DNA of 64,000 nucleotides, taken from contig CAUYUJ010018712.1 in the NCBI GenBank assembly GCA_963575745.1, forward strand, positions 62,001 through 126,000. Reading direction: 5' to 3'. A program made the translations under genes and the position numbers. Of the stretch, positions 18,286 through 48,132 are shown in pieces. The notes under the pieces are model-generated. The model was not told the DNA's origin. It did not search any database and saw nothing but the letters and a program-made list of their open reading frames with translations. This DNA is from Prorocentrum cordatum (taxonomy: Eukaryota > Sar > Dinophyceae > Prorocentrales > Prorocentraceae). How positions within the stretch are numbered: the stretch's first letter is position 1; each line of letters starts with the position of its first letter.

Positions 18286-18379
18286 GCGAGGAGGAGTGAC
18301 CGTAGCTCGAGGCGCGCACGTCTGTTTCCACCTCGGTGGATGCCACTGCGCTGGCAGGGCGACGTTAGTGCCAGACTAG

Positions 18380-19857: not shown

Positions 19858-19957
19858 NNNNNNNNNNNNNNNNNNNNNNNNNNNNNNNNNNNNNNNNNNN
19901 NNNNNNNNNNNNNNNNNNNNNNNNNNNNNNNNNNNNNNNNNNNNNNNNNNNNNNNNN
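19858..19957. other. Assembly gap, 100 N
   Basis: Exactly 100 N, the customary length for a gap of unknown size. Confidence 0.99.
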
Positions 19958-20191
19958 TGGATAGACGGCGCGTTCTCCCGCGCGGGAAACGCGCGGGCAC
20001 GAGCGATTGGCCCTCCATGACCGCCAACATTTGATGCCAATCATGCCCGATCACATTCATGAGCGAAGCGTTGCATTGAGCATGCATGGGCCATTCAGCT
20101 CCCATTGAAGATCCCCTGTTGCGCACCCCGTCTTTCGCCCTCCAAGCGTCGAAGGTGGGCGCGCGGGTCGCGGGGGGCAACTGCCCGCAGG

Positions 20192-23097: not shown

Positions 23098-23284
23098 GAT
23101 GAGGAGGGGGCGGAAGAGGAGGAGCAGGAGCAGGAGGAGAAAGGAGCAAGAGAGGAGGGGGGTGATATTGGGGGGGGGGGGGGGAGGAGGGCGAGGAGGA
23201 GTGACCGTAGCTCGAGGCGCGCACGTCTGTTTCCACCTCGGTGGATGCCACTGCGCTGGCAGGGCGACGTTAGTGCCAGACTAG

Positions 23285-24220: not shown

Positions 24221-24390
24221 GGCTGATGCGCTATATCAGCGAACCGTGGCGCCACCGCCACTCTGCACAATATTGACATGATTGCCCCCTAGCCGCAATT
24301 TCTGCCCTCGGGCGAGCCACCGGGAGGCGACTGGGGCAGAGGGCCCAGAAGGCCCCGAGGTACTCGGTTCGCCCCGCGATCGAAAATTAG

Positions 24391-30215: not shown

Positions 30216-30314
30216 AAGAAGAAGAGGAAGAATAAGAATAAGAAACACGCACAATTATCCCAGTGCGACCCTACCTAGGAGTTGGAGCCCCTAGGAAGGT
30301 AGCATTGGTAGTAA

Positions 30315-30692
30315 CAGTAAAGCTGAGCTAGAGCTAAACTAAAACTAAACTAAAGCTAATCTAAAGTTAAGCTGAAGCTAAGCTAAAGCTAAAGCTGAGC
30401 TAAAGCTAAGCTAAAGCTAAGCTAAAGCTAAGCTAAAGCTAAGCTAAAGCTAAGCTAAAGCTGAAGCTAAGCTAAAGCTAAGCTAAAGCTAAGCTAACTA
30501 AAGCTAAGGTAAAGCTAAGCTAAAGCTAAACTAAAGCTAAGCTAAAGCTAAGCTAAAGCTAAGCTGAAGCTAAGCTAAAGCTAAGCTAAAGCTAAACTAA
30601 AGCTAAAGCTAAGCTGAAGCTGAGCTAAAGCTAAGCTAAAGCTAAGCTAAAGCTAAGCTAAAGCTAAACTAAAGCTAAGCTAAAACTAAAGC
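30315..30692. repeat. Hexanucleotide-based array (AAGCTA)n
   Basis: A dense array of AAGCTAAGCTAA units with occasional GAAGCTAAGC variants. It is not the canonical dinoflagellate telomere repeat (TTTAGGG). A 24-bp duplicated GGGGACTGGGGGA motif follows at 30693-30740, then decayed LINE sequence. Confidence 0.92.
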
Positions 30693-30791
30693 TCCCAGGG
30701 GACTGGGGGAACCGCTCCCAGGGGACTGGGGGAGCCGCCCGGGGCGATTTCCACTGCCCGGCCCCTTTAAGCTAAGAGAATAAGAACCCAT

Positions 30792-31846
30792 CTAGGCAGA
30801 GCCTAAGTAGGGAAAAAAACGGCACGGGCACGGCTCGGCCAGAAGGGAACGGGCTCGGGCAACGGTGTCCGGGGTCGCCGCGGCCCAGAGAGGCACAATC
30901 GCACACTTGCGAGGCTGGAGAGAGAGGGGCGCCAGCTCCTCTGCGGCGCGGAATGGCTCAGTGGTGCGACTCAGAGCGTCGAGCTGGCGCGCGAGGAGGC
31001 CGACGTCGCCAGCGCAGCCGCCGACGTAGTCCTCGTCGCAGTCTGGCGCGCCGTCGGCGTGCTCCACGGGCGAGGCGACGCGGCGGAGCAGCGGGTCCAT
31101 CGCGATCGCCGGCGCCGAACCGCTGGCAAGGCGAGCCCACGCAACGCTCAACTCGATCGGGGGCGTGGAATGGCGCGCCACATCGACCTTGACGCAGCTG
31201 TTCGGAGCGCGGCACATGGAGCGGAACGGGCCCATGTAGCCGATCGGCAGGCCGAACCGCTCGAGACCGGCAAAAACAACAGGCCCGACTCGGGGGCGGG
31301 AAGGCCACCGAGACATCGAAGCTGGCGAAGGTCGGCCCGTGCAAGGCGGCGTCGGGCATGATGCGGGCGCGACGCAGTTCGGCGTCGATGCGAACGATGC
31401 GCCCCGTGAAATTGCGGCCGACGGCGAAGCCCCGCTGCGAGCCATGCGCGCGCGCGTGGCCACGGCGTCATTGAGCGTGACATTGGCAGCGCCCGCAGTG
31501 GCTCTGATGTCAGTGGTTTGCAGCGAGAGCGGGCGCGCGTCCGCAGGCGCCCTGTCGGCGGCGTGCAAGCCAGCGAGGTCCCCCCCCCTTCGGTGGGAAC
31601 GCGAAATCCCAGACGCTCAAGTCGGGGGCGAAATGCTGGTCAGAACAGAAAATGAAAGATCCTCGAGGATGTCCAGTGAGCTATCGCATGCCAGCCAGGC
31701 CTCGCGCGACGACAGTCGGGGCCAGGAGCCGACGCGCGCGCTGGAGGAAGTAGCGGATCGTGGCCTTGGTCGGGGCGCCGACATCGATGGCCCCCCCGAG
31801 CGGCATGTGATCATTGATGCAATGGCGGACCTCGGGCTCGTCGGCA
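30792..31846 (-). pseudogene. LINE reverse transcriptase half, left of the inserted element
   Basis: Minus-strand pieces in changing frames. These are HCINDHMPLGGAIDVGAPTK at about 31.80 kb, LQTTDIRATAGAANVTLND at about 31.5 kb, then FASFDVSVAFPPP near 31.3 kb (the family has FDFAAAFPS, with catalytic Asp). Next come GLPIGYMGPFRSM near 31.24 kb, GGCAGDVGLLARQLDAL at about 31.0 kb (family CADD, here CAGD) and LSLQPRKCAIVPL near 30.9 kb. It stops at FPYLGSA next to the hexamer array, so the 3' end is missing. Its 5' edge is the left inverted repeat at 31847. The matching endonuclease half lies on the same strand at 45.8-47.9 kb. Confidence 0.75.
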
Positions 31847-31863
31847 CTTTGATGAACGCGAAG
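31847..31863 (+). repeat. Left terminal inverted repeat
   Basis: CTTTGATGAACGCGAAG, the exact reverse complement of 45653-45669. Confidence 0.8.
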
Positions 31864-32280
31864 AAGTAAGAATTTATAAATGGTTATAGTGATGCTATGC
31901 TCGAATCCTATAGGATGCTATGCTAGTTTAGGGTAGGTTAGGATGCTATTTCGGATAGGTTCGGGTTCTATAGGAGGGCCATTAGTATTAGTGACGATTA
32001 GGGAAACTATTTTTTCCTATACGGCATATAGGGCCCTATCATCAGCGAAAGTTGCGAAGCTTAAAACTGTTTATTTTTTTGTATGTTTCAATGTTTCCCT
32101 TTTTTTCACGGGTTTCCAATATTTTCAATAATTTTACGTTTTCATTTTTTTTATATGTTTTTCACTGTTTTTTTTATAATTATTTGTGCATTACCTTCCA
32201 CTAATTTCAGCATGTGCTCATTATTTTCTATTATTCGTTTTTTTGTTCTTTATTAAGAACACATCAAAACAAAAGCGTTC
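31864..32280. other. AT-rich left subterminal region
   Basis: Repeated GCTATGCT and TCCTATAGGATGC motifs, then long T-rich text. The drop in GC is abrupt at the inverted repeat. No gene. Confidence 0.7.
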
Positions 32281-32442
32281 GCCGCCGACTGAACGTTGCT
32301 TGCCAGGGAGACGAGGGGGCGCTCGTCCACCTGCAGTTCATGAACGCGCAGCGAAGCGCCCGCGGTGGGGATCCCTCTCTTCATCCGCTCGCTATCTGCA
32401 ACATCTCCTCCCCATATCCTCATGTTCTTCCTCACTTTCTAC

Positions 32443-32846
32443 AGCGGCCAGACCGCTTGGCATATCATATTTGCATTATTCCTGCTCCCCCCCCTTCTGC
32501 GGCCAGACCGCCTTGCCATATCATATGGTCATTACTTCTGGTCCCCCCCTTCTACAGCGACCAGACCGCTTGGCAAATCATATTATTATTAGTCCTAATC
32601 TCCCTTCCCCATTCTACAGCGGCCGGACCGCTTCGCATATCATCTTATTCCTTCTTGCGCAATATCTGAAGGACGATGGCAGCGCGCAGAGCGGTTTGAC
32701 CGCTTCGCCCGTGCGTAGCATCCTTGCGCGTAACATCGGTTTGCGGCCTGCCCGCTTGTTGCTTGCGCGGGGGAGGACGGAGAGGAGGAGAAGGAGGGGG
32801 GGCAGCAGGGGCAGGAGCGGCCCCTCGCATCAGCGGCCTGACCGCT
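32443..32846. promoter_or_regulatory. Palindrome cluster 1, seven copies upstream of gene A
   Basis: AGCGGCCAGACCGCT (32443) and variants at 32498, 32556, 32618, 32690, 32742 and 32832, mostly followed by TTGGC, TTGC or TTCGC. The arms AGCGGYC and GRCCGCT are reverse complements around one central base. A promoter, binding-site or processing role is inferred only from position. Confidence 0.7.
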
Positions 32847-32945
32847 TTGCAATTTCTTCCGACGCGTTGCGCCGCACCACCAACACGCAGCCGCGACGGC
32901 GGTTCGAGCGCGGCCAGTCGCCGCGGCGACGGCGGCGCGCGCGGG

Positions 32946-34753
32946 ATGGATTCCGCAAGGGTCCTGCGGCGCATCGCCGCAGTCGGTTCAATCCTGGAGT
33001 CGACCGTCGACCAGCTGCAGCTCGCCGCGGCGTCGCGCTCGCAGTCGGGGCAGCTCATTCGGGAGCTCAAGAAGGCAAGGTTGCCCCCAGAGGAGCTTCA
33101 GCCGATTCTGGGTGCGATCGCGGGGTCACGCTTTCTCGAATGCGATAAGGCGAGCATCAACACCGCCATTTCGCAGCTGGTTGCTGCCTGTGGCGATCAT
33201 TGCATGGCCATCGCGAACTACCAGGAGTGGGAGACGCTCATCGAGTTCTTGCCTCAGCCAGTGTGGGATTCCCTGCCGTCAGGAAATCCGAACATACTGT
33301 TCGACTTTCTGATTGACCTGGGGCTGCGCAAAGCTTCGGAGCCGACGCGGCACGTGATGGCCTGCCTGCTCATGCAAGCAGGGAGAGGGCTTGACGGCGC
33401 TCTTCAGATCGATACGGACACAAGGGCAGAGTCGGCGTTTGCCGTCGGCACGCTGTTCGCACAGAGGGCGGCTCAGCAGCCGTTCCCAGTTCCTGTCATC
33501 ATGAAGTTGCCGACGGCGCCGATGAGTCTTCAGACCGAGCATCCCGCTCTGTACATGCGGGTATACAGTTAGCAGCCGCCGAAACGCTTCGATCTCGACC
33601 CCATCCAATGGAACGTCCTCAAGAAGGCCACCAAGATGCGCCATCGCGCAGGTCGGGCTGCAGCCATGGGCGCCCCGACGAGCAGCGGGGCGCAGTGGGT
33701 TCCTTCGAGGCAGGTGGCTCCAACATCCTTGCTTTCCCATCGGCAGCCGCTCCTGCCAAGCCAGGACGCGTCTCCTGCGATGGTCGCGCAAGTGGTAACA
33801 TCGATGATGCCATCGCTAGTGCCGATGCAGCAGCATATCCAGGGAGTGCTGCATCAGATGCTCCAGCAAACGATCGCTGGGCAGCCGAGCGGGGCACCGC
33901 CAAACCAGAACCTTTTTTTCAGCGCTTGCGCTTGTGCATCCGAGTGGGGCACCGCCAACCTCGAGCTCGCTCCAAGATGCCGTGGCAGCGATTGCTGCAC
34001 CACCAACGCCTACCCCAGCACTTGTTGCACCACCAGCGCTGTCACTTCCGCAGTCGCAGCCGCGCGCAGAGCCAAGTGCAGCACAAGCACCAGCAGCAGG
34101 CGTGCCAGCAGCACCAGCAGCGCGCGCAGCAGCACCAGCAGCAGCACCCGCGCCAGCAGCAGGCGCGCCAGCAGCAGCAGCAGCTGAGGCACCGCCTGCA
34201 GACGGGCAAGCAGCAGCTGAGGCACCGCCCACAGTTGACGCCGCGACGGGCTCCAAGCCGAAGTTGTCCGTAGCTGAAGCTGCCGACAGAATTACTACGG
34301 CCTGCGACGCCCAGAAGAAGGGACGGAAAAGGGCCAAGACAGAAGATGAGGCCAAGAGCCAAGATGACCAAACGGCTGCACCCCCGAAGACGACACCGAC
34401 CGCCAAGAAGAAGCCTGCAACCGCTGGCCCGACGAGCCCAACCAAGAAGCTTGCGACAACCGCCGCGAAGTTGCAGCGCTTGTACGACGAGTCCACGCGT
34501 TGCAATTTTCTGATCCGCTTTATGGATGTTGCGGACACGCAGGGTTCCATGAGCTTCCCGCGCACCATGAAAACGAAGCAGGCTACCATGAAGGAGGCCC
34601 GCGGGGGGGAGTGGGGGTGGGGTGGGGTGGGGCGTGTGTGTGTGTGTGTGTGTGTGTGCGTGCGTGTGTGTGTGTGTGTGTGTGTTGTGTGTTTGTGCGT
34701 GTGTGTGCGTTCGTGTGTGTGTGTGTGGTGTGTTTGTGTGTGTGTGTGTGTGG

Positions 34754-34793
<40 letters not shown>

Positions 34794-34802
34794 GGCGGGC
34801 GG

Positions 34803-34881
<79 letters not shown>

Positions 34882-35414
34882 TGTGTGCGCGCGCGCGTGC
34901 GCGCGTGCGTGCGTGCGTGCGCGCGTCTGTGATAGTTGCGCGTGGGGTGGTGGTGGTGGTGGGTGGTGGTGGTGGTGGTGGTGTTGGTCTGTTGGTGGTG
35001 GTTGTGCGTGCGGCGTGTTGTGCGTGGGCGCGTGGGGGGGGGGGGGGGGGGGGGGGGGGGGCTTCGCAGAGGAGGGGGAGGAGCAGTGGTGGTGGTGGTG
35101 GCGGTGGTGGTGGTGGTGGTGGTGGTGGCGGCGGTGGCGGCGGTGGTGGCGTGTGTGTGCGTGGGGGACTTCGCGGAGGAGGGGGAGGAGCAGCAGGAGA
35201 AGGGGGAGAAGGTGGGGGAATGCGCGGCAGGAGGAGGAGGAACCGCACGTATATAGGGGGTAGGAGAGGAGCGCAGGGGAGAGCAGGGGAGCGCATGGGA
35301 GAGCATTTATTTTTATTCCCGAACCTCCAGGCCATCAAGGTCTGCAAGGACGCGTGCAAGAAGAGCAACGTGCACGTCCCCCATGGACACGAATTCCTCT
35401 CGACTGCGAAGTGA
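32946..35414 (+). CDS. Element gene A, Gln/Ala-rich protein of unknown function, interrupted
   Basis: Not recognised. The ATG at 32946 opens MDSARVLRRIAAVGSILEST, a helical domain that continues to YMRVYS. A TAG at 33570-33572 interrupts it, but the same frame resumes at once with QPPKRFDLDPIQWNVLKKA. At the T7 run 33913-33919 the protein-like frame shifts by one and continues with GAPPTSSSLQDAVAAIAAP, an Ala/Pro/Gln-rich linker, and then a Lys-rich stretch to about 34596. A likely GC-AG intron (34597-35330) holds the GT/GTGC microsatellite. The last exon gives AIKVCKDACKKSNVHVPHGH and a TGA at 35414, in phase. The stop and the shift suggest a pseudogene, or sequencing error at the T-run. It follows palindrome cluster 1. 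Confidence 0.55.
34597..35330 (+). other. Probable intron of gene A with GT, GTGC and GGT microsatellites
   Basis: Donor GAG|GCCCGC and acceptor CCTCCAG|GCCATC are both followed by GCC and keep phase 0. (GT)n and (GTGC)n run from about 34630 to 34925, and (GGT)n with a long G-run from about 34945 to 35160. GC donors are known in dinoflagellate genes. Confidence 0.5.
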
Positions 35415-35521
35415 GCTTTGCGTCGGAGCTGGAACTTTTTTCGCCGCGATTGCATCTCCGCAGTCCTGGCGTCATACAAACATCTAAGCTTGCATCATCT
35501 CGTGCCTCTGACGTTTGCTGC

Positions 35522-35660
35522 AGCGGCCTGGCCGCTTTGCCTGATGCTTATGTCTGGCTTGCTGGCCATAGCGGCCCGACCGCTTTTGTCGCCTGCTATG
35601 TGTCAACCTTGCTTAGTATAGCGGCCCGCCGCTTTTGCTTGCTTCAGCGGCCTGGTCGCT
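35522..35660. promoter_or_regulatory. Palindrome cluster 2, four copies upstream of gene B
   Basis: AGCGGCCTGGCCGCT at 35522, AGCGGCCCGACCGCT at 35570, a 14-nt variant at 35620 and AGCGGCCTGGTCGCT at 35646. The last ends 36 bases before the gene B ATG. Confidence 0.7.
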
Positions 35661-35695
35661 TGCGCGGCCGCCCACGCCGCGCCCTGCGCGGCGCC

Positions 35696-37019
35696 ATGGG
35701 CGCGTTCCTCAACATGGAGAACGTGGACCCGCTGTCTTTCCTGCGTGGTGAGGGCAGCTCCAATAGCTTTCTCGTTGCCTCTCTGCCCCAACACAACGTC
35801 GATGCTTTCTCCCGTGCCCCTCCCGTGTCCCTCCCGTGTCCCTCCCGTGCCCCTCCTCTCGTGTCCCTCCCGTGTCCCGCCTGCCCCTCCTTCCGCGCCC
35901 CTCCCGTGTCCCTCCCGTGTCCCTCCCGTGTCCCTCCCGCGCCCCTCCCGTGTCCTTCCCGTGTCCCTGTGCCCCTCCCGTGCCCCTCCTGCCCCTCCTC
36001 CCGTGCCCCTCCCGCGCCCCTCCCGTGCCCCCTTGTCTTGCGCGCGCCCCAGGAAGCTGCTCCAGTTGCAGCGCCAGCGCGCGGCAGCGGAGCAGCGGCA
36101 GCAACAGCAGCGGCAGCGCCGCCGCAGGCAGCACCAGCGCATCCAAAGAGCAGCACTCCGTGGCCATGGCGCCGCCCTGCGAGCGCGGAGGAGGCCGCGG
36201 CCTGCATCCGCTCGGCCAAAGCGCGCGTGCTCGATCGGCACCGCGGCCTGGGCCCCCCCCCTGCCCCTCGCGTGCCTAGGAGTCATTCGAGCAAGAGGCC
36301 GAAGCTCTCACCCGCGTCAAAGCACGCCAGCGCAGCAGCAGCGGACGACGCCAGCGCAGCAGCATCAGCGCAGAAGGCGACGGCGACGAAGAGCGAGCCG
36401 ACAACGAAACAGCCCAAAGAGCAGCTGCTCCTTCCGACGGCAGCAGACGCAGCACCACCAGGCAGCAGCGCACCAGCAGCAGCACCTGCCGACGCAGCGC
36501 AGCAGCAGCAGCAGCTGCTGCCGACGCGCATGAAGGCTGCGCCACGGCCAAAAGTAGGGCCTCCGGCGCCGCCTCCGAAGTCGGCGAAGGCGCTGCCGCC
36601 GAAGCAGCCTGCAACGCCGCCTCCGAAGTTGCCTGCGCCGAAGCAACCTGCAGCGCCGCCTCCGAAGGTGCCTGCGCCGCCGCCTCCGAAGGCGCCTGCA
36701 GCGCCGCCTGCGCAGGGGGCTCCGCGCGCGCACGCCCGGCCCCTTCGGCTGGCGTGCTCCGAACGGGGGGCCGTGGAGGGCGGGCGTTGACGGCGGTCAG
36801 GCGCGACGCGGCATCAGCGGCGGCCGTCGCCGCGACTATTGCCGCATGCCCAACGTCGCCAAGAAGCAGGGCCCCGAGGCCGTCGCGAAGTTCAAAGCCT
36901 CGAACCCGCGCCCTCGGGGCATCGAGGAGGCCTGGGCGTTCTACCAGCTGACGAAGGCTAATGTGCAGGCTGCGCCGCCTCCGCCTGCATCGAGGCCGCC
37001 GCCGCCCCCTCCGCCGTAG
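35696..37019 (+). CDS. Element gene B, Ala/Pro/Lys-rich protein of unknown function
   Basis: Not recognised. Exon 1 from the ATG at 35696 gives MGAFLNMENVDPLSFLR. A GTGAGG donor at 35748 and an AG at 36064-36065 define an in-phase intron that removes the 11-bp minisatellite. The frame then gives EEAAACIRSAKARVLDRHRG near 36.2 kb and a long low-complexity region of PPPKxPA repeats. At about 36.72 kb the protein-like frame shifts by one. It continues RRDYCRMPNVAKKQGPEAVA, then GIEEAWAFYQLTKANVQ, and ends in a Pro run with a TAG at 37017. The shift is either a lesion or an unseen intron. The strongest coding evidence is the non-repetitive text at 36.2 and 36.85-36.97 kb. Confidence 0.5.
35815..36045. 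repeat. Minisatellite, 11-bp unit CCCTCCCGTGT
   Basis: About twenty units alternate CCCTCCCGTGT and CCCTCCCGTGC, inside the probable gene B intron. No frame meets a stop, because an 11-bp unit cycles through all frames without a stop codon. Confidence 0.9.
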
Positions 37020-37079
37020 CCATGGCGCGGGGGCCGCTGCAGTGAGGAGCTGCCACCAGCCGCTTTTAACGGCGAGGAG

Positions 37080-37163
37080 GAAGAGGAGGCGGACGAGGAG
37101 GACGAGGCAGAGGATGACGAGGAGCAGGAGGAGGAGGACGAGCAAGAGGACGAGGACAAGCAA

Positions 37164-37194
<31 letters not shown>

Positions 37195-37225
37195 GAGGAG
37201 GAGGAGGAGGAGGAGGAGGGGGGAG
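37080..37225. repeat. GGA/GAG purine tract downstream of gene B
   Basis: GAGGAGGAGGACGAGCAAGA-type text followed by pure (GGA)n. Confidence 0.85.
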
Positions 37226-37356
37226 GAGAAAGATGCCCGTTCGCATTGGGCGCCTGCACGACGCTGCTTTGCCGAGCAACCTGGCCGCCTCGGCCCGCGC
37301 GGAGATTCAAACAAGCGTTCTCTTCAGCATCCCCCCTCAACTTCCATGCAACCCAT

Positions 37357-37664
37357 GGCGGCCAGACCGCTTTGCCTATCCCACATCCTCCTTGCTCCCC
37401 CATCCCCCCTCCACCAATACCTGTCTGCGCCTCCTCGTTCTCCTGCAAGCCCTCCTCCTCCCACGTGGCGGCCAGGCTGCTTTGCCCATTCCCCTTCCCC
37501 CATCCCCCCTCCACCAATGCCAGTTTGCAACTCCTCCTTCTTCGCGCAACCCCCCCTCCTCCGATATAGCGGCCAGGCCGCTTTGCGTGTTGTCGCCGCC
37601 ATTCAGATAGCGGCCAGACCGCTCTGCGCGTTGCCATCGCCCTTCAGATAGCGGCCAGACCGCT
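37357..37664. promoter_or_regulatory. Palindrome cluster 3, five copies upstream of gene C
   Basis: Copies at 37357, 37467, 37568, 37609 and 37650. The last three are AGCGGCCAGRCCGCT followed by TTGCG or CTGCG. The last two sit in a short direct repeat (ATCGCCCTTCAGATAGCGGC). Confidence 0.75.
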
Positions 37665-37803
37665 TTGCGTGTTGCTATCGCCCTTCAGCTTCGCATTGGC
37701 TTTGCCACATGATTGCACCTCGGCTCGAGGAGGCGGCCGAGGCCCCCGCCCCGTGGCCCCCGCAGCAGCAGCTCGACCGCCCGGGCAGTTCTTCTCGCCC
37801 GGG

Positions 37804-38870
37804 ATGGCCGCTAGCGACGAGACCCGCGCGCAGCGGCGGTTCCACGAGTGTCCGTTCCCCGAGAACTGCACCAAAGATGTGTGGAATCGCAAGTGGCATC
37901 GGTGCCAGTCGTGGATTTCGGAAGACGATGCTCGCTACAAGCTCTTCAGGCATCTGCAGTCTCGCGACGAGCACAAGGAGGGCCTCGCGGATCTCGACAA
38001 CGAAGGGGCCAAAGCGCTGGTCGATACGCAGCCCATTGAATGTCGCACCATCAGCAAGAAAGATGACGAGTGCATCAAGTGGATGGAGCGGGAGGAAGAG
38101 AAGAAGGAGAACAAGCGCCGAGCTGCCGCCGAGGCCGCCGAAGAAGAACGCCGCCACAACAAGCGCCATCGCCGCAGCAGCGGAGGCAAGGGCATCTCTG
38201 AGCAGCAGAAGGGGGAGATTGCCGACATGGTTGCCAGCAGGTTCGGGCTCCCAAGTGCTCCGCGTCCACTTGGGCCTCCAGCTGCTGCGCAGGATGCAGC
38301 ACCAGCAGCCTCGCCAGCGTCGAGCCTGCGGCCGCTGGTGAGCCTTCGCCAGTCGGCAGCGGCGGTGGACAACACCCAGAAGCTCACCATCAGTCTCGGC
38401 GAGCTGAAGGCGCTCCAGGACGACATCGAGCGCTGCGCCCGCGCGTCGTCGCAGATCTTGCGCTTCCTCGACGGCGCCAAGGCTGCGTTCCCGAACGAGA
38501 TGCAGACGTTCAACGCGGCCAACGAGACCATCCGCCAGATCATCGAGGCGCACACGGGGGTGCACATGCACATCGCCCGCGGCGGTTTGCGAGGGCTGCG
38601 CGGCACTTTGGCATCTGCAGTCTGCAGCCTCCCTCGCATCAGCGAGCATCTCACCATCGAATCTCACCATCGCCATCTCACCGTCGATCCTTCTTCGCCC
38701 CCCTGCTGGGAAATGCAGCGCTGCGCCAGATGCCAACGTAAGAGCATCTGCATGCGAGAAGCGGCGGTTCGCTCGACGATATCTTCCGTCGAGCCGCGCG
38801 CCCGACGATCTCTTCCGTCGAGCCGTGCGCTCGACAACCTCGCGTGGGAAAACGCTGCGTTCCTAATTAC
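37804..38870 (+). CDS. Element gene C, Cys/His protein with coiled coil, 3' end unclear
   Basis: From the ATG at 37804 the protein opens MAASDETRAQRRFHECPFPE and continues CTKDVWNRKWHRCQSWISED with KLFRHLQSRDEH, a CxxxxxC...HxC pattern with a later HL...H that could bind zinc. A highly charged helix follows (EREEEKKENKRRAAAEAAEE) with a basic HNKRHRR patch, then an Ala/Pro linker. A second helical domain gives LTISLGELKALQDDIERCAR, then FNAANETIRQIIEAHTGVHM near 38.56 kb. Beyond about 38.58 kb the text becomes less protein-like and runs into a minisatellite and a gap, so the real 3' end or intron is not known. Similar small Cys-Trp...HL proteins exist in other dinoflagellates as I recall them. 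A nucleic-acid role is a guess. No lesions were seen in the first 260 codons. Confidence 0.6.
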
Positions 38871-39124
38871 CGTGTCCCTCCCGTGTCTCTCCCGTGCCCC
38901 TCCCGTGCCCCTCCCGCGTCCTTCCCGTGCCCCTCCCATGTCCCTCCCGTGTCCCTCCCGTGTCCCTCCCGTGCCCCTCCCGTGTCCGTGCCGTGTCCCG
39001 TGTGCCACTCCTCTCGTGTCCCTCCCGTGCCCCTCCCGTGCCCCTCCCGCGCCCATCCCGTGCCCCTCCCGTGTCCCTCCCGTGTCCCTCCCGTGTCCCT
39101 CCCGTGTCCCTCCCGTGCCCCTCC
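38870..39124. repeat. Minisatellite CCCTCCCGTGT running into the gap
   Basis: Same 11-bp unit as at 35.8-36.0 kb, about 23 units before the N run. Confidence 0.92.
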
Positions 39125-39224
39125 NNNNNNNNNNNNNNNNNNNNNNNNNNNNNNNNNNNNNNNNNNNNNNNNNNNNNNNNNNNNNNNNNNNNNNNNNNNN
39201 NNNNNNNNNNNNNNNNNNNNNNNN
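39125..39224. other. Assembly gap, 100 N
   Basis: Exactly 100 N placed within the minisatellite, so the array length is unknown. Confidence 0.99.
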
Positions 39225-39256
39225 CCCCCTTCGCCCCCTCCTCGCCCAAGCGCTTC

Positions 39257-39308
39257 AGCGGCGCGACCGCTGCGCGCCATATCCTCTCGACCCAGCGGCG
39301 CGGCCACT
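39257..39308. promoter_or_regulatory. Palindrome cluster 4, two copies upstream of gene D/E
   Basis: AGCGGCGCGACCGCT at 39257 and AGCGGCGCGGCCACT at 39294. A further copy, AGCGGCATGGCCGCT at 39543, lies inside the likely first intron of gene D/E. Confidence 0.65.
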
Positions 39309-39418
39309 TTGCATTGTGATTGCTGCGCGTGGCGCGCGACTCTCCATGCGCAGCCACTTCGCTCTCCGCGCGGCTCCCCGCGCCCCCGCTTCGTCGGGGG
39401 CCCGCCCGCGCGCGCGCC

Positions 39419-41747
39419 ATGGGCAAGGGGCGCTCCGTCGGAAAGCGGCCTGCAGCGGCCTCGGTGGAGGCGTTGGAAGCTGACGGTGACCAGCCTCCCT
39501 CATGCCCTATCCTCGGGCCATGTCATCGCTCCATTCACGCGCAGCGGCATGGCCGCTTTGCAACGCCCCCCCCCCCCCCCCTTTCCCCACCTTCAGCCCC
39601 GCCCCCGCGCCGCCCCGGTGGCGACTCTACTGATCCAGGAGACGCAGCAGTTGCCATCGCCAGCGCGATGATGACGACCTTGCCCTCCGCGGACGACACC
39701 CCGCCCAGCGTGCAACCAGCTGCAGCGCAGAACGTGCTCCATGCGCTTTTCAACCGGCAGAATCAGAAGCAGAACGGGCAGGGCCGCAAGAACCAGCAGG
39801 GGCCGACGTGGGCGGCAGGCAGCCTTCAGCCAGGAGGAGGCGCCAGCGCAGAGAGCCAGCAGTCAGCAGAGGGGGCCCACGGGACCAACTCCGTCGGCCA
39901 GGCCGCGGGCGAGCCCGACGGTCGCCCCGGCGCCCCAGCCCCGGCCCAGCCCAGCCCAGCTGGCCCAGCCGAGGCCGAAGACACCCAAGTTGAAGAAGAG
40001 GTGCCAGCTGAGCAGGCAGATATGGAGCAGCCAGCTGAGGAGCAGCCACCTAGCCTGAGATGCGGCCAGCTGAAGAGGAGAAGCCACCTGAGGAGGGGCC
40101 AGCTGAGGAGCGGCCACCTGCAGAGCTTGAAGATGGGCCGACGCAAGGTGAGATTGCGGAGCTGCTCGCATCGCAAAAGCCGCCGATATGCATTTTGCGC
40201 AAGAAGGAGTGCGATCCGCTTGAAAAGGGCTGTAGGATCACCCACAACGGCGCGCAGATGACGCGTGCCAGGTGCAGGGTGCGCGACCAGACGCTGCGGG
40301 GGATATTCGGCGGGTGGCCGATTGCGGAGTTCGACGAGCTCAGCGCAGAGGAGCAGGATGAGTTCTACAGGGGATGCGGCCCCACCGCTGCCGCCTGCCG
40401 CGACGCAATGAAGCACATGCTTATGCAGGTGCGCATGAAGCGTATCACGGAATCCCAGAGTGGGCAATGCTTGCCCCGGTCCGTGCGCGAGAAGCTGGGC
40501 TACAATACTGATGACATCGAACAGAAGACGCCAGCGGCAGACATCGAGGAGCACCACGTTCTCGGGAAGACGTACCGAGTTGCGATCCACTCGATCTCTG
40601 AGGACAGGATCAAGGAGGTCATCTTGCAGGAGGTGGCAAAGACAGTGGGCCACAGTCGCAAGCGCAAAGCTGCAGCCTTCCTCGAGGGAGCCTCAACACC
40701 TGAGGAGGGCGCAGAAGCTGCAGGCAACAGGCCGCCCGAGCAGAAGCCAGAGAAGAAGCGCGGCTCAAAGATGGGACGCACATGAACATACTAGTACTAT
40801 ATGTCCTCCTTGGAGGCGCGCGTCCGACCCGAACATATAGTATACCCATCTTGTAGTATATCGTTTCCCGAGCGGTGTGGCCAGAAAGCACCCGCCACGA
40901 CGCATATACTATAAGATTTCTCGGTGCGCGCGTCGCCCCTGGGGGGGCGACGCACATATAGTATAAGTATGTTGGGGTGTTGCCGAAAAGAAGCGCAAGA
41001 GCAGCAGCAGCAGCAGCAGCTCCAGCGATTCGAGCTCCGGCAGTAAGAAAAAGAAGAAAGGCAAAACGTCCAAGATGGGCAAGCGGTCCAAGAAGAGCAA
41101 ACCGCCCAAGAAGGGCAATCAGTCGAAGAAGGAGGCCGATGAGTTATCGGGGTCGGACGCGGGCCTCTCGCCAAAGGAGCTGCTAGCCAAGCGCAGGGCC
41201 AAGGTCGCAGCTGAAAAAAAGCGGCCCGCGAAGCTGAGGCGCAGCAGAAGCCGATTGACAGAGAGCTGGCCAAGGGGCAAGCAGCCCAGAAGAGGGAGGA
41301 ACAGAAGAAGCGCACCCAGGGCCTGCAGGTCGTTCACAACGTGCTGGCGGCGGCGAAGCCGTCGGCGAAGAAGACGGCAACGCTGCTGGCAGATGATCGC
41401 TCGAAGAAGGCGCCAGCGAGAAGGAGGGGGAGGAGAAGGAGGAGGTGGTGGCACGGGATGGGGGGGGGGGGGGGGGGGGGGGGGGGGGTGGGGTGAGAAG
41501 GAGGACGAGGGGGGGGGGGGGGGGGGGGCGCCCCCGCCCTCGCCAGGCGCCGAAGACGCACGCCGAAATGTCCAACAAGAAGCAGGAGCTCCTGAACGAA
41601 ATTGCGAAGTACTGCAATAGCTGCCTGGGGGAGGAGAATCTGATCCCACAGATCAAGGAGGGCGAGGTTAAGACGGCCGTCAGCTACATGACGGCGTGGA
41701 TGGAGACCACGACTGCTGCTTTCGAGCTCAGCACGTGGGCAAAGTGA
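39419..41747 (+). CDS. Element gene D/E, conserved-looking dinoflagellate protein, possibly one spliced gene
   Basis: The ATG at 39419 gives MGKGRSVGKRPAAASVEA. A GT-AG intron (39486-39596, phase 1) holds one palindrome. Then follow a Gln/Pro/Ala region and a Glu/Pro region, where one base seems lost near 40052. The best-folded part is frame 1 to 40785: QKPPICILRKKECDPLEKGC, FGGWPIAEFDELSAEEQDEF and EEHHVLGKTYRVAIHSISED. The 'hpvLGktYrv' text is common in dinoflagellate proteins as I remember them; its function is unknown. After the 189-bp inverted-repeat element the reading resumes without an ATG as AEKKRKSSSSSSSSSD, a Lys/Ser region and a coiled coil (AAQKREEQKKRTQGLQVVHN), with one base missing at the A7 run near 41215. 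The last exon (about 41536-41747) gives LLNEIAKYCNSCLGEENLIP and a TGA. D and E as one gene is an inference. Confidence 0.55.
40785..40973. mobile_element. 189-bp element with 20-bp inverted repeats, introner-like
   Basis: The left end AACATACTAGTACTATATGT and the reverse complement of the right end, AACATACTTATACTATATGT, differ at two positions. Inside are further TATAGTATA motifs and a hairpin with arms CGTCGCCCC and GGGGCGACG (40931-40953). It separates two stretches of Lys-rich coding text, and removing it would join them, so it may act as an intron. I see no clear target duplication. Confidence 0.65.
41458..41530. repeat. Poly-G tract in the probable last intron of gene D/E
   Basis: Two long G-runs are separated by TGGGGTGAGAAGGAGGACGA. 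The acceptor CCTCGCCAG lies just downstream at about 41535. Confidence 0.85.
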
Positions 41748-42151
41748 TCCAGCGAGGGGCTGGGCAGCGGAGACTCGGGGGCGCTGGCCAGCGCACTTCG
41801 GAGTAAGTCTCTATATTCGACGTCTGAGCGAGCCTGCCAGTGCACAAAGCGGATGTAACCGCTCTCACGTAGGGTAAGGAGCTCGTTGCTCCTCTTAGCG
41901 TCGGATATACAAGGGGCGCGTTGCTCCAGTGGCCCAGCGATCGGCGTCGCGGATGGAAGCCGATGCAGTTCCATAGCAAAAGCGCACCTGTGCCCCCCCC
42001 CCCCCCCCCCCCCCCCTCCTCCTTCCCCCCCCCCCCCTCCCCCACCCCCCCCCCTAGACCTTGCTGCCCCCCTTCCCAACCGCGACAGAATCACTTCCTT
42101 CCTCCCTCTCCTCGCTTCCCTCCTTCGCTTCGCCGTCGCTGTGCGCCGTGT
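41748..42151. other. Intergenic stretch with poly-C tract
   Basis: No gene seen. A C-rich run with few interruptions occupies about 41993-42055. Confidence 0.7.
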
Positions 42152-42238
42152 AGCGGTCTGACCGCTGCGCGTGTGCTTGCGTAGCAATCTTACTTGTTCG
42201 GTTCTTGCTCTCGTTGCGCGCGCAGCGGTCTGACCGCT
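42152..42238. promoter_or_regulatory. Palindrome cluster 5, two perfect copies upstream of gene F
   Basis: AGCGGTCTGACCGCT at 42152 and 42224, perfect dyads around a central T. The second is followed by TTGCC and a CGTGCATGCTTATGCC stretch that recurs after copies near 45.3 kb. They end about 100 bases before the gene F ATG. Confidence 0.75.
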
Positions 42239-42339
42239 TTGCCACGCGTGCATGCTTATGCCAATGCTTCCGCTCATTGCCGCTTCGCGCGCAACCAGCT
42301 TTGGCCCGAACCGCCTTGTTTGGATCAGTTCCAGCCCCA

Positions 42340-44450
42340 ATGGAGCGACCAAACACTGATGGTAGTGAGCGCATTTCGAAGAGGTCACGGACGTTGGCCC
42401 CGCTGGTGGATTCATTTCGCGCGTCGGATTCTGCAATCTATGACGCGGCGCGAAAGCTGAAGGAGCGGCCCGAGTTGATGGGCGACCTTACGAAGTCGAA
42501 ACTACAGCGCGCACGCGAGGAGTTCGCCGCAGCGTTTCTCGATGCGCCGGTAGAGCTGAAGCTGAGCGACGGCAACTTCAATATGCCAGTCACCGACCCT
42601 GCCAATCTGCTTCGGCACTGCGTTTCAGAATCGGGAAGCTTCAACCGCTTGAGGTCAACAACTTTCAGCAAGAGCCCATGCTCCTCTGTCACATCATGGG
42701 ACTTTGTTTTGCATTTCGACGAGTTTGTGCCAGGGAATGTATTGAGGCAATATAACAAGCGCAAAGCATTGGCGTGTTATGCAAGCTTCCGCACGTTCGG
42801 CCCCGCTGCGTTGACATCTGCGGATGCGCGGTTTCCACTCGCATTTATACGGCATACGATGGTCGATGAGGTATGTGGTAAGATGTCTGCAGTTGTCCGC
42901 CAACTATTGCGGCGACTATTCATTGGCCCAGACAGCGCGTCGCAGAGGGGCGCCCTCATTGATGGCATTGGGCCTGGCGGTGCCCCTGCGCTGATCTTTT
43001 TCAAATTGTCGAACCTACTTTATGACGAAGATGGCGCTAAACATGCATTGCGTTTAAAGGGTGCGGCTGGCGTTGTTCCATGCGCGTTGTGCAAGAATGT
43101 CCACGGTATCTACGATTCAACGGAAACCCTGCTCTCAGCGTTCGACGCGACGGGAACATCGGCACCCATTTCTTGCGCTGGCCCGAATTGGTTCGACGCG
43201 CGCAGCGCTGACGATTTGTGGTTCAGCGCTGATCTACTGCAGCGCTTGAAGGAAACTTTACCCACGGGCGCATTCGATGAGCAGCGCAAGATGCACGGCA
43301 TTAATCACGTGCCATATGGTTTGCTATTGGACACTGAACTTCGCCAGCACGTGTCGCTGGACATGCGCGCGCGCGATCCAGCACACTGCGTGATCATAAA
43401 TGGGATCGCGCAGATTGAACTGAGCGAGTTGCTGTGCCGCCTTGCTGCCGTCGGCCTGACTTTGGACAGATTCAGGTGCGTCGCCAACGCGCAGTGGAAG
43501 ACCTGCTCGGCACGTGGGCCGCTTGACGCAAACAACCTTTTCAGCGATGAGCGACAGAAGCATTTGCGCAAGAGCAAAAAAAACACCGGTAAGGCGAGTG
43601 ATATAATATCGGCCCTGCCGCTACTTCGATACGCCCTGGATGCACTCACCGATGGAAGCGCGCAGTTCAAGGCAGACTTTGCAAAGGAAATGGCGTAGTT
43701 TACAGCGCTGGCCCAAGATGTTTCGTTATATTTAGAAGCAAAGAGAGGCCCTGCTCAGGCAGATGATTGGGCTGTGGCTTTGCGCGGCCACGCCCTACTG
43801 TTCGAACGCGCGCGCGGGGACTGCGGCATGCGCACCCCCTAAATTCCATGTCTGCCGACACTTGCCGCGGCGGGTTGCGTGGGGCGGCTTCGCCCTGGAC
43901 GCGCTGGCTACCGAGCGATGCCGCACAAAAAAAACCTTTGGCTGTCGCTGGTAATATCGGCAACGCCAGCACCTTTGAGACATCATTTTTGATGCGATGT
44001 GTTGCTCTTCGCTGCTGCAAGGAAGGAGAAGCAGCTGTCATTTGGAAATGGCTTGGTGAATAGCGCCAGGTACAACGACGTTATGAGCATTTCGACGATG
44101 GTCGTTATTGGGGGATCTCGCGTCAAAGCTGGATATATAATTCACTTTGGTGGCGGGCGTCATTTTATCATCGGTGGGGCTGAAGAAGGCGGCACCGTGG
44201 TGTTGATTGCCCACACTTTGCAGTTTGTTTGTCGGGCATCCCCCAGCGCCTCACGCCGGCGAAAGGACGGCGCCCCTCGGCCCCTGCGTTGCGAAAGTTA
44301 CAAGCCACAGGCGCTGTGGACAGAGGAGGATCCTGGAGCGTTTCTACCTGTTGATATGGCATAGGTACCGATTGCGACGTGTCTCCCGAACTGCTGGTTT
44401 AGAGCGCTGATGTCATTGCAGGGCCAGCGCGAAGCTCGGAACAAAAAAAA
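42340..44450 (+). pseudogene. Element gene F, DDE-transposase-like protein, disrupted in the C-terminal part
   Basis: The ATG at 42340 (MERPNTDGSERISKRSRTLA) is preferred over 42205, which reads through a palindrome. The first 452 codons are intact. They hold VLHFDEFVPGNVLRQYNKRK (likely first catalytic Asp), LKGAAGVVPCALCKNVHG with a CxxC, INHVPYGLLLDTELRQHV, and RARDPAHCVIINGIAQIEL. The last carries a DxxH of the kind seen in CACTA, KDZ and Plavaka transposases. A TAG at 43696-43698 interrupts, yet the frame goes on as FTALAQDVSLYLEAKRGPAQ. Frame changes at a C5 run (about 43840), an A8 run (about 43925) and near 43995 link PKFHVCRHLPRR, NIGNASTFETSFL and GYIIHFGGGRHFIIGGAEEG. A second in-frame TAG is at 44362. 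The family occurs widely in dinoflagellates as I recall. It would be the element's mobilising enzyme, now broken. Confidence 0.65.
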
Positions 44451-44653
44451 AAAAAAACAACATCGCCACCGCGATCACCATCGTCGCTATCGCTGTCGGA
44501 AGTGGCGCGACCGCTGTGCCGGGCTATCTCCTCCTCTTGCTTCGTCTCCTCTTTCTCATCTGCTCTCTTCTCACCCCCTCTTTCTCATTATCATCCTCCT
44601 CGTCCTCTTCCATTGGAAGCAACGTTCCGGGCGTGATTCAGAGCCAAATTTTA

Positions 44654-44668
44654 AGCGGCCAGGCCGCC
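44654..44668. promoter_or_regulatory. Palindrome copy before the relict spliced leader
   Basis: AGCGGCCAGGCCGCC, 40 bases upstream of the leader-like sequence. Confidence 0.6.
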
Positions 44669-44707
44669 GCTGTGCATGCAGAAACAACAAACAGGAACAA
44701 CCATAAT

Positions 44708-44728
44708 CCGTATCGCTTTTGGCTCAAG
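44708..44728 (+). other. Relict dinoflagellate spliced leader
   Basis: The 21 bases from CCGTA to GGCTCAAG match the dinoflagellate spliced-leader exon at 18 of 21 positions. The last 12 (TTTTGGCTCAAG) are exact, the preceding base is T as allowed, and mismatches fall at positions 6, 8 and 9. Relict leaders in genomic DNA are known where a trans-spliced mRNA was copied back into the genome. An ATG follows 56 bases later. Confidence 0.7.
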
Positions 44729-44784
44729 TTTGATTTTCGGGGCCGCATCAGCAGCTCATCCGCCTGCCGCGCCGCCTTTAGGCC

Positions 44785-45294
44785 ATGGCGCTTGCCAACG
44801 GGAGGTGCTCGCTCTGCCAGACCCTCAACGCTGATGCAGGGACAGCGTGGGTGAAGCAGCGCTGGGGTTCGCGGTGGTTTCCAGTGTGCCCAGCGCGCTG
44901 GGGCGCCGCCGAATCGACGACTCCCCCTCGAGTTCGTGAGTATTGCAGCGGGCAGCACGAGTGGAAGCTCCGAGCAGCTGTTGGAGATCGACTCGCGCTC
45001 ATGGTTGAATTAGGGCTCTCTCTCTCGGCAGTGTGCCTCTCTCTCTCTGCGGGCGCAGGGCCGCTTCCAGAGGCGCCGACTGAATTAGGATTATGTTTTA
45101 TTTTTCCCAGGTCCCTGCGCGCGATGCATGTCTGGAATAGACTTCCCTGTGATAGGCGGCTTCGCTCCGCCCCCTGCGAGGTCTGCGCGCGCCGCTGGCG
45201 CCGCAGGCCTGCTAAAAAAGCTTGCCGCGCGCGCGCGCGAGCGTCAGCGGAATGGCCGTTTTGCTTGTATCGGTGCGTGTCTGCAGCGGTCTGA
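44785..45294 (+). CDS. ORF G, small Cys-containing protein downstream of the relict leader
   Basis: 169 residues from an ATG 56 bases after the relict leader. The N-terminus MALANGRCSLCQTLNADAGT with KQRWGSRWFPVCP has a CxxC and Trp-rich text that resembles part of a zinc-binding domain, and REYCSGQHEW continues in this style. The second half is Arg-rich and less convincing and overlaps a palindrome copy at 45246, so the true protein may end earlier. Function unknown. The leader makes a retroposed mRNA origin likely. Confidence 0.4.
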   Translation: MALANGRCSLCQTLNADAGTAWVKQRWGSRWFPVCPARWGAAESTTPPRVREYCSGQHEWKLRAAVGDRLALMVELGLSLSAVCLSLSAGAGPLPEAPTELGLCFIFPRSLRAMHVWNRLPCDRRLRSAPCEVCARRWRRRPAKKACRARARASAEWPFCLYRCVSAAV

Positions 45295-45390
45295 CCTCTT
45301 TGCTGCGCTTGCATGCATATTCATGTTTCAGCGGTCTGTCCGCTTTGCTGCGCTTGCATGCTTATTCATGTTTGCAGCGGTCTGCCCGCT
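45246..45390. promoter_or_regulatory. Palindrome cluster 6, four copies near the right end
   Basis: Copies at 45246, 45285, 45330 and 45376. The last three are AGCGGTCTGNCCGCT-like, each followed by a repeated TTTGCTGCGCTTGCATGCTT, giving a tandem unit of about 46 bp. Confidence 0.7.
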
Positions 45391-45399
45391 TTGCTACGC

Positions 45400-45652
45400 T
45401 TGCATGCTTATGCGAAGTTGTATTCTTGTTGCTTATTTGCTATCGTCATTGTTTTTCACTCATTTCCATATTTTTCATATTTTTTATTTTTCATTATTTG
45501 TCATTATTTTTCGCTATGTTCACGATTTGTCAAGTTTTCATGATTTTCTCTTTATTTTTATGTTTTCACTATTTTCATTATTTCTCATTATGATTCACTA
45601 TATGTTGATGCGATCCTATAGACAGCTATAGGACGATATGCCTTTCTATAGT
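45400..45652. other. AT-rich right subterminal region
   Basis: T-rich text with repeated ATTATTTTTC and TTTTCATTATTT motifs, ending in CCTATAGACAGCTATAGG and CTATAG next to the right inverted repeat. It mirrors the left end in composition and CTATAG content. Confidence 0.7.
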
Positions 45653-45669
45653 CTTCGCGTTCATCAAAG
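45653..45669 (-). repeat. Right terminal inverted repeat
   Basis: CTTCGCGTTCATCAAAG, the exact reverse complement of 31847-31863. Confidence 0.8.
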
Positions 45670-45836
45670 CATGCTTCTCGGCGAAGATGGGCCGTCAGCG
45701 CAAGCGCAGCGCGCCCGCGATTCCACGGCTCTTTCTCACGACAGGCCGGCGCCCAAATGGGGCCTTGGAGTTTGACCCCCTGCAGGATCAGGCGGCGCCT
45801 CCACGGGGCCCGAAGGGGCGCCGCGGCCTGGGGAGC

Positions 45837-47924
45837 CTAGAGGACCTTGCGAAGCCTCTCTGGGCTGATCGCACCTAACTGCCCCGCTGGGCGCCGGGCA
45901 GCCTGCTCAGCCAGAGAGCGCTGCCCGGCCTCGAGGGCGCGGCGCAGGCTGGAACATAGCATGACGAACTCGGTGTTGTCGGAGAGCGAGGTTGGGTCGT
46001 TCCTTATAACCAAGAACTTGGCGCCCAGCTCGGTCGCGGACTGGGCGCGGCGTGCGAGCTGGATGTCTTGCCGCCAAACCGCCCGCGAGATCGAACGCGC
46101 GGTGAGCACCCGGCCCTCGACGTAGCCAGCGCGGTGGATGTCGCCAGTGGGACGACGAAGCCAATCGTCGCGAACAAGTTGAGCAGCCTCCCTCATCAGG
46201 CGTTCGCGCGAACGCCAGCGGTTCTCGATCGGCTGGCAGGTGTCGTTGGTGGCATCAATGAGCTGCTGCGAGTACTTAGCATAGTTGGGGTCGCGGAAGA
46301 TCGACGGGTGGATTGCCTGCTCAAGGAGCGGCGCGCGCGGCTTCAGGAACGACGAGAACTGCGGCACGGCACGGTCGCAAAGGCGTCTGCCGGACAGGAT
46401 GGCAGATTCGCGTGCGATTGAGACTTTCGCAACAACCTCGTGCATGACATGCGACGGCAAACTGATGAAGATGCGGTCCATAGCGGAAGCGGTGTAGTCG
46501 GCGCTGTTGAAGCTCGTGGGCATGTAGGACTGGATTTCGAGCTTAGAGTCGAACAGCGACTTCCAGAACGGCTGCTGCTGAAGTGCGCTGTTGTCAAGTG
46601 CGAGGCGTGCGCGCTGGGGTCGCGGCTGTAGAAAGCTGCTCGGAGGGCGGCTGGCCGTGTTGAGTCCACCGATAGCGATGAACGTGCGCGCGCGGTAGTT
46701 CTGCTCCGCCCACGTGCGGTGGAGGCGCCACTCGCGACGGATATTGACACGGCCGGCGGCCTCGATGTCATGGTTGTGTACGCTCATGATGACGACGGCG
46801 TTGCGTGTGACAGCGTTAGTGATGGCAGTAATCTGAACGCGACCAGGGACGGGCACGCGAGATGGGCGGGAGCTGGTTTCCCGCGAGCTGCTCGAGCTGT
46901 ATCGGCGAGAACCACGGGACGAGAGTGGCGGCGCCACCCGTGGCGCTGTCGGTGCTTCCGTCCGGGACCGTGGACTCACACAAAAAAAATGTGAACGGGA
47001 ACGGCTGGGCATCCACCTACGCGCTCAGCAAGGCCTCCGTGCCGTGCGGGCGCGCGCGTTCCAGGAGACGAAGCACGCCTGCGACGCGCCCTCCGGTGCA
47101 CGCCAGGGCGCCCACAGGTGGCCAGAAGCGCCACTCTTCCGACCCAGTGTCCGCAAAGAGGGCCCGAAAATCGGTAAGGATTGCGCACCGATCGATGTCG
47201 CGGAAGTACTGGCGTTCGAGCGCCTTCCCGTTCCACTCGAAGACCGACGGGTCAGCCTGGCCCTTGATCTTGGACGGGCGAAGGGCAGGACATGACAATG
47301 GTTCTTTCCCTTGGCGGTGATGGCGCGCCACAGCTTTTCGGGGCACCTGTGCTGCATGAGCTGGTTGAGCTTCTTGCCGTGAACAACCGTGCGGATCTGT
47401 TTGGCGGATTTGTCTGGGTTGATGAAGATAGGGGCGATCAGGCCTGTGGTGTCCGTGGACTCGAAGCGCTTCCGCTTCCCAGCGACGTCGCGAAGAGCTC
47501 GGGCGAGAGCGAGGGCGCGTGGGACAGCGACTTCCTTGCTACCTTTGACCTCAAGGGTGAAGCGCCTGGCGGGCGCGTCGTCACGCAGTTCCACCATGTC
47601 CGAATGCAGGTTGGCTGCGGCGGTCCAGTCTTGCAAGTCGTTGAGAAGCATATCGGGCGCGATGATGCGTTGGGAGCCGATGGCGAAGATCGTGGCGTCT
47701 GGCGCCCGGTCCCATTCGACGCCCTGTCCATTCGCAGTTCTGAACGACGGGAGCAAAGCGCCGATCCAAAAATTAGGTCCGTCTTGAAACACCGAAACCA
47801 ATCGGATTGCAAAACAAACCTGAAACACAACAACCTTTTGAAAACCTAAGTGTGCAAAACAGCTCGCTGAAGGGGTGGGAGATCTTTCGCGCAACTCCAT
47901 GGAAAGAGGGGGAGCTGTATTCAT
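45837..47924 (-). pseudogene. LINE ORF1-like and endonuclease half, right of the inserted element
   Basis: From 47924 on the minus strand an ORF1-like protein reads ADMVELRDDAPARRFTLEV-type text (LHSDMVELRDDAPARRFTLE), then VPRALALARALRDVAGKRKR and IFINPDKSAKQIRTVVHGKK. FVSWNARARTARRPCL near 47.05 kb is the usual start of the endonuclease domain (family SWNARAL). A frame change follows. Then come VVIMSVHNHDIEAAGRVN near 46.78 kb, FIAIGGLNTASRPP where GDFN is expected, SAMDRIFISLPSHVMHEVVA near 46.46 kb, and the helical linker SRERLMREAAQLVRDDWLRR. It ends with ERLRKVL at 45837, before any reverse transcriptase. The missing part lies beyond the inserted element at 30.8-31.8 kb. Confidence 0.75.
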
Positions 47925-47929
47925 ATTGT

Positions 47930-48132
47930 TGAATTGTGGAGGGAGGGCGGGGGAAGGATAAGGAGAGGAATACGGGAGGAGGCCAACGTAGAAGAGGAGC
48001 TCGGGCTCCCACCCTGATCCTCCACCTCTTGATCTGGACGCGTGGAGCTCAGATCACGCAGATCAGCCTTGGCAACCGCTTCACTCGTGGTGGTCTTGCA
48101 GATTTATTCGGGGGAGGTAATTTTCAGCAGCG

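Follow-up and report, generated by a model that had tools for sequence, protein, structure and literature searches.

A decayed multigene DNA transposon with palindrome arrays between its genes in the dinoflagellate Prorocentrum cordatum

A stretch of 64,000 nucleotides from the dinoflagellate Prorocentrum cordatum (contig CAUYUJ010018712.1, positions 62,001 to 126,000; hereafter the window) holds a set of genes that lie on one strand between two inverted repeats. A cut-and-paste DNA transposon usually has one or two genes, and the question raised by this locus is whether the larger set belongs to a single mobile element and, if so, how its genes might be controlled. Our analysis confirmed that window positions 31847-45669 are one DNA transposon inserted in a long interspersed nuclear element (LINE), and that this copy has decayed. 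We consider it highly probable that it is a cut-and-paste transposon with a conserved one-strand gene set, A-B-C-E-T, a DDE transposase (T) and palindrome arrays of its own. Most likely it belongs to a new five-gene lineage of such transposons, in which the arrays would have a regulatory role.

The perfect 17-bp inverted repeats that the original prediction had placed at 31847 and 45653 were both found to be exact. The sequence CTTTGATGAACGCGAAG occurs at 31847-31863 on the plus strand and at 45653-45669 on the minus strand, with no third site in the 64-kb window at up to 3 mismatches. Shuffled windows contained a mean of 0.12 sites at the same threshold, and two sites were seen in 0 of 100 shuffles; such a pair is not expected by chance. 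The dinucleotide CA lies directly outside both ends in direct orientation, as had been noted, and forms a 2-bp target duplication, within the 2-3 bp proposed. The sharp switch to AT-rich sequence was also seen, the GC content falling from 0.65 outside to 0.32 inside at the left boundary and from 0.69 to 0.28 at the right. When the junction was reconstructed by removing the element and one CA, two LINE copies in locus L016_17 aligned across it in the same order, with tblastx scores that were weak yet consistent (about 31-67 bits per piece). As predicted, the element seems to have been inserted into a single minus-strand LINE, of which the two flanks look like separate parts.

A search for further copies with the same 17-mer, suggested by the original prediction, gave 56 occurrences in the 4.13-Gb host assembly and none for the reversed control. 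Twenty-six of them form 13 convergent pairs spaced by 1.5-14.6 kb, 12 of the pairs lying at loci besides the window. A direct 2-bp duplication accompanied the perfect ends in 13 of 13 pairs (TG 5, CA 4, TA 3 and GG 1, as written on the contig). The sequences read were the 13 pairs, C17655, C4113, seven single ends (about 10 kb each; C4780 repeats the C14172 locus) and the 3-kb loci L001-L008. The copy at C17655:594790-608221 (13,432 bp, no N, TG duplication) is colinear with the window element from end to end, without gaps, in blocks of 78-91% identity that include both sides of the assembly gap in the window. This colinearity agrees with the claim of a single multigene element. The expectation that copies would share gene content held for C17655 but not for most paired copies: 8 of the 13 are short (1.5-2.1 kb) and without genes, although both of their ends are common to the window element. 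A block matching window 38614-39124 is present in 6 of the 12 other paired copies, and the short copies look like internally deleted derivatives. C4113 retains the transposase end only. Among three copies with mutated ends, the duplications match in L022 (TA) and L027 (CA). The 14.55-kb L016_17 was considered as a second full element and rejected, its interior matching LINE sequence within a short copy. C14172 and C4780 (L016+L017, L024) share an identical 9.2 kb at 100% with the same flank, reflecting either redundant assembly or two alleles. L018 holds about 6.8 kb of DNA between family ends (1530-8336 in element orientation) that is unrelated to the window element.

The element contains a 100-N assembly gap, and a scaffolding artefact could have joined two unrelated halves over it; the other gap of the window is flanked by a 4.8-kb repeat of 99.6% identity. 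The gap-free copy C17655 has about 1.17 kb at the corresponding place, and C17655, C1547 and C12102 (the latter two described below) have no N and the same architecture as the window element. These copies refute an artefact for the family as a whole, and we regard this explanation as almost certainly wrong.

More distant relatives were sought in the assembly with the transposase. Scoring covered the best 93 of 2,791 candidates; the counts are therefore lower bounds, and at least 98 matches fell into groups near 80, 68, 33 and 29% identity. C18673:107936-123275 represents a second subfamily with the same gene order as the window. C1547:480246-490486 (10,241 bp), one of ten in the 33% group among the matches listed, has 20-bp ends that differ at one position and are each flanked by TG. 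The surrounding DNA is a tandem array, and 11 of its other units to the left of the element and one to the right have the sequence of the joined flanks, an empty site. Of nine further members of this group, 8 had both ends close to where they were expected, flanked by direct duplications of TG (5), CA (2) and TT (1), and the ends of the remaining one, C13304, were not found. C12102:189326-200574 on the minus strand, one of seven in the 29% group among the matches listed, has ends of 31 bp with one mismatch and a CA/CA duplication. When these subfamilies and distant relatives are included, 26 of 28 copies with both ends located show a direct 2-bp duplication. Pyrimidine-purine (YR) dinucleotides account for 24 of the 26: TA in four (L011, L012, L015 and L022) and CA or TG in 20.

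Proteins of C18673 used as queries located A (E 1.5e-12), B (1.7e-5), E (1.7e-22) and T (1.7e-64) in order in C1547, and C1547 proteins located A (2.3e-10), E (3.2e-15) and T (1.7e-48) in order in C12102. Gene C was located in both by its C-x5-C ... H-x6-H pattern together with its position; this zinc finger is present in 5 of 5 elements examined, and the zinc ribbon of gene E is complete in C1547 and C12102. The three more distant lineages C18673, C1547 and C12102, in which the transposase is about 70, 33 and 29% identical, all keep the order A, B, C (zinc finger), E, T (transposase). The introns that had been proposed find no counterpart in C1547, where each of the genes A, B, C, E and T is one open frame when counted from its first ATG (430, 255, 208, 532 and 705 amino acids); the broken frames of the window look like decay, as with the stop and frameshift of its transposase. 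A further gene, G, had been counted in the set and was dropped from the core: window 44498-44828 is absent from C17655 and present in C4113, and in C1547 only 63 bp separate the transposase stop from the next palindrome. Inside the window element, 3' of gene T, positions 44717-44728 on the plus strand read TTTTGGCTCAAG, an exact match to the terminal part of the dinoflagellate spliced leader and perhaps the trace of a reverse-transcribed message.

Selection was measured as the ratio of nonsynonymous to synonymous substitution rates (dN/dS). For gene T of the window and C17655 this ratio was 0.93 (0.67 and 0.79 in wrong frames), and no codon periodicity was found among the substitutions between these two copies. 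We read both results as decay after insertion, and selection was therefore tested between the window and C18673, in the right frame and in two wrong frames of the same alignments. The right-frame values were 0.22 for T (451 codons), 0.44 and 0.45 for two parts of E (179 and 56 codons), 0.48 for B (70 codons) and 0.29 for the first part of C (104 codons). Wrong frames gave 0.82-2.1 for these genes and 0.63-2.1 overall, and T of C17655 compared with that of C18673 gave 0.24. The genes were under purifying selection between subfamilies, strongly for T and weakly for A and the second part of C. Because dN/dS is purifying against C18673 and neutral-like for T against C17655, the window copy is the broken remnant of an element in which selection had acted on the genes.

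These results bear on the idea, part of the original prediction, that the genes are unrelated cargo. Ordinary transposon ends might once have captured neighbouring host genes, the window being a chance multigene copy, and the many paired copies without genes, as well as the other DNA carried by L016_17 and L018, would fit such a history. However, the same five genes occur in the same order in C17655, C18673, C1547 and C12102, down to about 30% protein identity and with selection between subfamilies; capture is very improbable, and the cargo interpretation was abandoned.

The DDE type assigned to the transposase was supported by an alignment of T from the window, C17655, C18673, L037, L046 and L047. 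Both D residues are conserved in 6 of 6 sequences; a cysteine pair follows 19 residues after the second D, as C(2)C in 5 of 6; H(3)H is found in C18673, L037, L046 and L047 and, behind the stop and frameshift, in the window; and an E lies 17-18 residues after the second H. The resulting order, D-D-CxxC-HxxxH-E, is the order of the CACTA/Mirage/Chapaev/Transib (CMCT) group, as given in PMC12730594.

Polinton/Maverick elements carry DNA polymerase, capsid and integrase genes and produce a 6-bp duplication. The window element resembles them in being large and multigene with inverted ends, so that an integrated virus or Polinton-like element could be envisaged, and such elements are reported in another dinoflagellate (PMC12721341). 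A Pfam scan of 8 element open reading frames (ORFs), a set with the core of B and the N-gap stretch outside it, gave nothing above the cut-offs and no polymerase, capsid, integrase or protease match. The ends are short, the duplication is 2 bp rather than 6, and no relative of T was found in the viral contigs searched. We think a viral or Polinton origin most unlikely.

The genes of the transposon are separated by a recurring palindrome, AGCGG-N5-8-CCGCT, which was not found in the flanks examined. At up to 4 mismatches from AGCGGCCTGACCGCTTTGC the window has 23 plus-strand sites, all within the element; three minus-strand matches overlap three of them, and ten order-1 shuffles of the window contained 0-3 sites. 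Sites with exact arms (AGCGG, 3-10 bases, CCGCT) number 18 in the window element and 0 in the remaining 50 kb of the window, 32 in C1547 and 0 in 5,760 bp of its flank, and 36 in C18673, whose left flank has 0. When the window element and C1547 were shuffled, means of 0.39 and 0.33 such sites were obtained, with at most 2. None of the 32 C1547 sites falls in coding sequence, although 6,390 of the 10,241 bp are coding. They form six clusters: one before each gene, ending 151-445 bp upstream of the first ATG, and a sixth after the last gene.

The palindromes of the same transposon could act in RNA rather than as DNA binding sites, as hairpins with AGCGG/CCGCT stems that mark the gene borders of one long transcript for processing, for example by trans-splicing. 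This would suit the constant arms around a spacer that varies from 5 bases in the window to 7-8 in C1547, and the conserved TTTGC after the palindrome, by which 23 of 23 window sites are oriented in gene direction. It accounts poorly for the sixth cluster, which sits after the last gene, and for the varying distance to the first ATG in C1547, and we hold it to be possible but rather unlikely.

Several observations weigh against the reading of a five-gene CMCT-like transposon with its own arrays. Two copies have mismatched duplications, L023 with mutated ends (TA/CA) and C18673, whose ends are flanked by TG and CA. Against C18673, dN/dS of A is 0.67 (207 codons), and that of the second part of C is 0.83 (75 codons) with one wrong frame lower (0.63). 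In T, L047 has C(3)C in place of C(2)C and C17655 has lost the first H of H(3)H; the transposase had no Pfam match at E up to 10 and no relative in PDB, and the fold model of the window T from the single sequence was unusable (mean pLDDT, the predicted confidence score, 33). Gene B of C12102 was identified by eye only, tblastn with the C protein of C18673 gave no significant match in either C1547 or C12102, and the zinc-finger pattern of gene C was picked after the sequences were seen. In C12102 the count of exact palindromes, with 3-12 bases permitted between the arms, is only 5 (0.4 in shuffles). Since Pfam and PDB gave no match, T is filed as a protein that probably works like a CMCT transposase and not as a proven member.

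The anatomy of the element suggests a regulon extending over all its genes and read by a protein of its own. The zinc-finger protein of gene C would be the best candidate reader, since it is kept in 5 of 5 elements examined. We judge it about evenly balanced whether this is an undescribed DDE transposon lineage with five obligate genes and a self-contained regulon, in which that protein reads the arrays before every gene. In the mechanism we propose, T would cut at the observed 17-31 bp CT..AG inverted ends, and insertion would occur mostly at YR dinucleotides with the observed 2-bp duplication. The other four proteins would be element proteins kept by selection, which was seen between subfamilies and was weakest for A and part of C. 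The arrays would be putative binding sites for an element-encoded protein, the gene C product being the best candidate, that turns on the five genes together and may, like TnpA of maize En/Spm, assist in building the transposition complex. In plant En/Spm a helper protein binds motifs that recur close to the ends and the promoter. The short deleted copies probably moved in trans.

Table 1. Positions of the element, its genes and arrays, and its flanks in the window
Feature	Coordinates	Strand	Basis or remark
Left flank, downstream part of interrupted LINE	30795..31846	-	LINE alignment
Left copy of 2-bp target duplication, CA	31845..31846	.	directly outside left end
Left terminal inverted repeat, 17 bp	31847..31863	+	exact
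AT-rich left end, GC 0.32	31847..32260	.	first ~230-260 bp common to other paired copies
Palindrome cluster before gene A, 6 sites (<=4 mismatches)	32443..32850	+	motif scan
Gene A, conserved N-terminal part, then in-frame stop	32946..33569	+	dN/dS 0.67 vs C18673; homologues in C1547, C12102
Palindrome cluster before gene B	35522..35664	+	motif scan
Gene B, conserved RG/GG-rich core	36738..36947	+	dN/dS 0.48 over 70 codons; C1547 match E 1.7e-5
Palindrome cluster before gene C, 5 sites	37357..37668	+	motif scan
Gene C, C-x5-C ... H-x6-H zinc-finger protein	37804..38583, end not fixed	+	dN/dS 0.29 then 0.83; zinc finger in 5/5 elements
Block kept also in 6/12 other paired copies	38614..39124	.	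alignment of paired copies
Assembly gap (N)	39125..39224	.	about 1.17 kb in C17655
Palindrome cluster before gene E, 3 sites	39257..39561	+	motif scan
Gene E, conserved core	40147..40683	+	dN/dS 0.44; zinc ribbon complete in C1547, C12102
Gene E, C-terminal part	41245..41412	+	dN/dS 0.45; same frame as core in C18673
Palindrome cluster before gene T, 2 sites	42152..42242	+	motif scan
Gene T, DDE transposase	42340..44361	+	open frame 42340-43695, then in-frame stop + frameshift
Palindrome cluster at right end, 4 sites	45246..45394	+	motif scan
AT-rich right end, GC 0.28	45420..45669	.	base composition
Right terminal inverted repeat, 17 bp	45653..45669	-	exact
Right copy of 2-bp target duplication, CA	45670..45671	.	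directly outside right end
Right flank, upstream part of interrupted LINE	45672..48053	-	LINE alignment

Beyond the order of its DDE motif, in which CxxC comes behind the second D and HxxxH ahead of the final E, the element resembles the CMCT group in its target duplication, which is 2 bp here and 2-5 bp in the group, and in being multigene, as are some members of the group, with a transposase, TET/JBP and a third protein. It differs in its termini, which are mostly 5'-CA..TG-3' in the group and CT..AG in the window, C17655, C18673, C1547 and C12102, and in having five conserved genes, intergenic palindrome arrays and no TET/JBP or other Pfam or profile match. The likeness to CACTA elements drawn in the original prediction thus stands for motif order and short duplication and fails for the ends, the exact duplication length and any Pfam match. 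Plant En/Spm has a transposase and at least one helper protein, according to PMC4158355; the plant elements have CACTA ends, a 3-bp duplication and two ORFs, whereas here there are CTTTG ends, a 2-bp duplication and five genes. The fungal EnSpm-like ESTA elements, described with TA duplications in PMC12730594, share the 2-bp duplication and an EnSpm-like transposase with extra genes, but TA is in the minority here (4 of 26, CA and TG being dominant) and no TET/JBP gene was seen. The Kyakuja/Dileera/Zisupton (KDZ) elements differ in their duplication of 7-8 bp, as stated in the same source. The P. cordatum genome paper (PMC10666404) mentions introner elements in connection with transposition. 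Our literature search, with most subscription papers and repeat databases outside its scope, found no description of a multigene DDE transposon in dinoflagellates, and the novelty of the lineage is provisional.

Elsewhere in the window, two 4.8-kb stretches (15057-19857 and 19958-24761) that are 99.6% identical surround a 100-N gap at 19858-19957 and are probably an assembly duplication. Satellite repeats in long arrays, with unit lengths near 90 and 112 bp, occupy 24434-30738, and an array of the 11-bp unit TAAAGCTAAGC at 30318-30689 adjoins the LINE end. An ORF at 61931-63283 on the minus strand weakly matches the phage integrase (tyrosine recombinase) family PF00589 (E 9.7e-6, 25.9 bits, cut-off 27.1) and perhaps belongs to another mobile element.

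That five genes have stayed in the same order down to about 30% protein identity implies that transposition here requires, or benefits from, several proteins of unknown function, and it raises the possibility that transposon genes are among the functionally uncharacterised genes of dinoflagellates. In this group, where the control of genes is little understood, the element also provides a naturally occurring signal that recurs ahead of every one of five genes. If the arrays do form a regulon, the element would arrive with the means to control its own transcription, and perhaps with accessory machinery for transposition, in a host about whose transcriptional regulation little is known.

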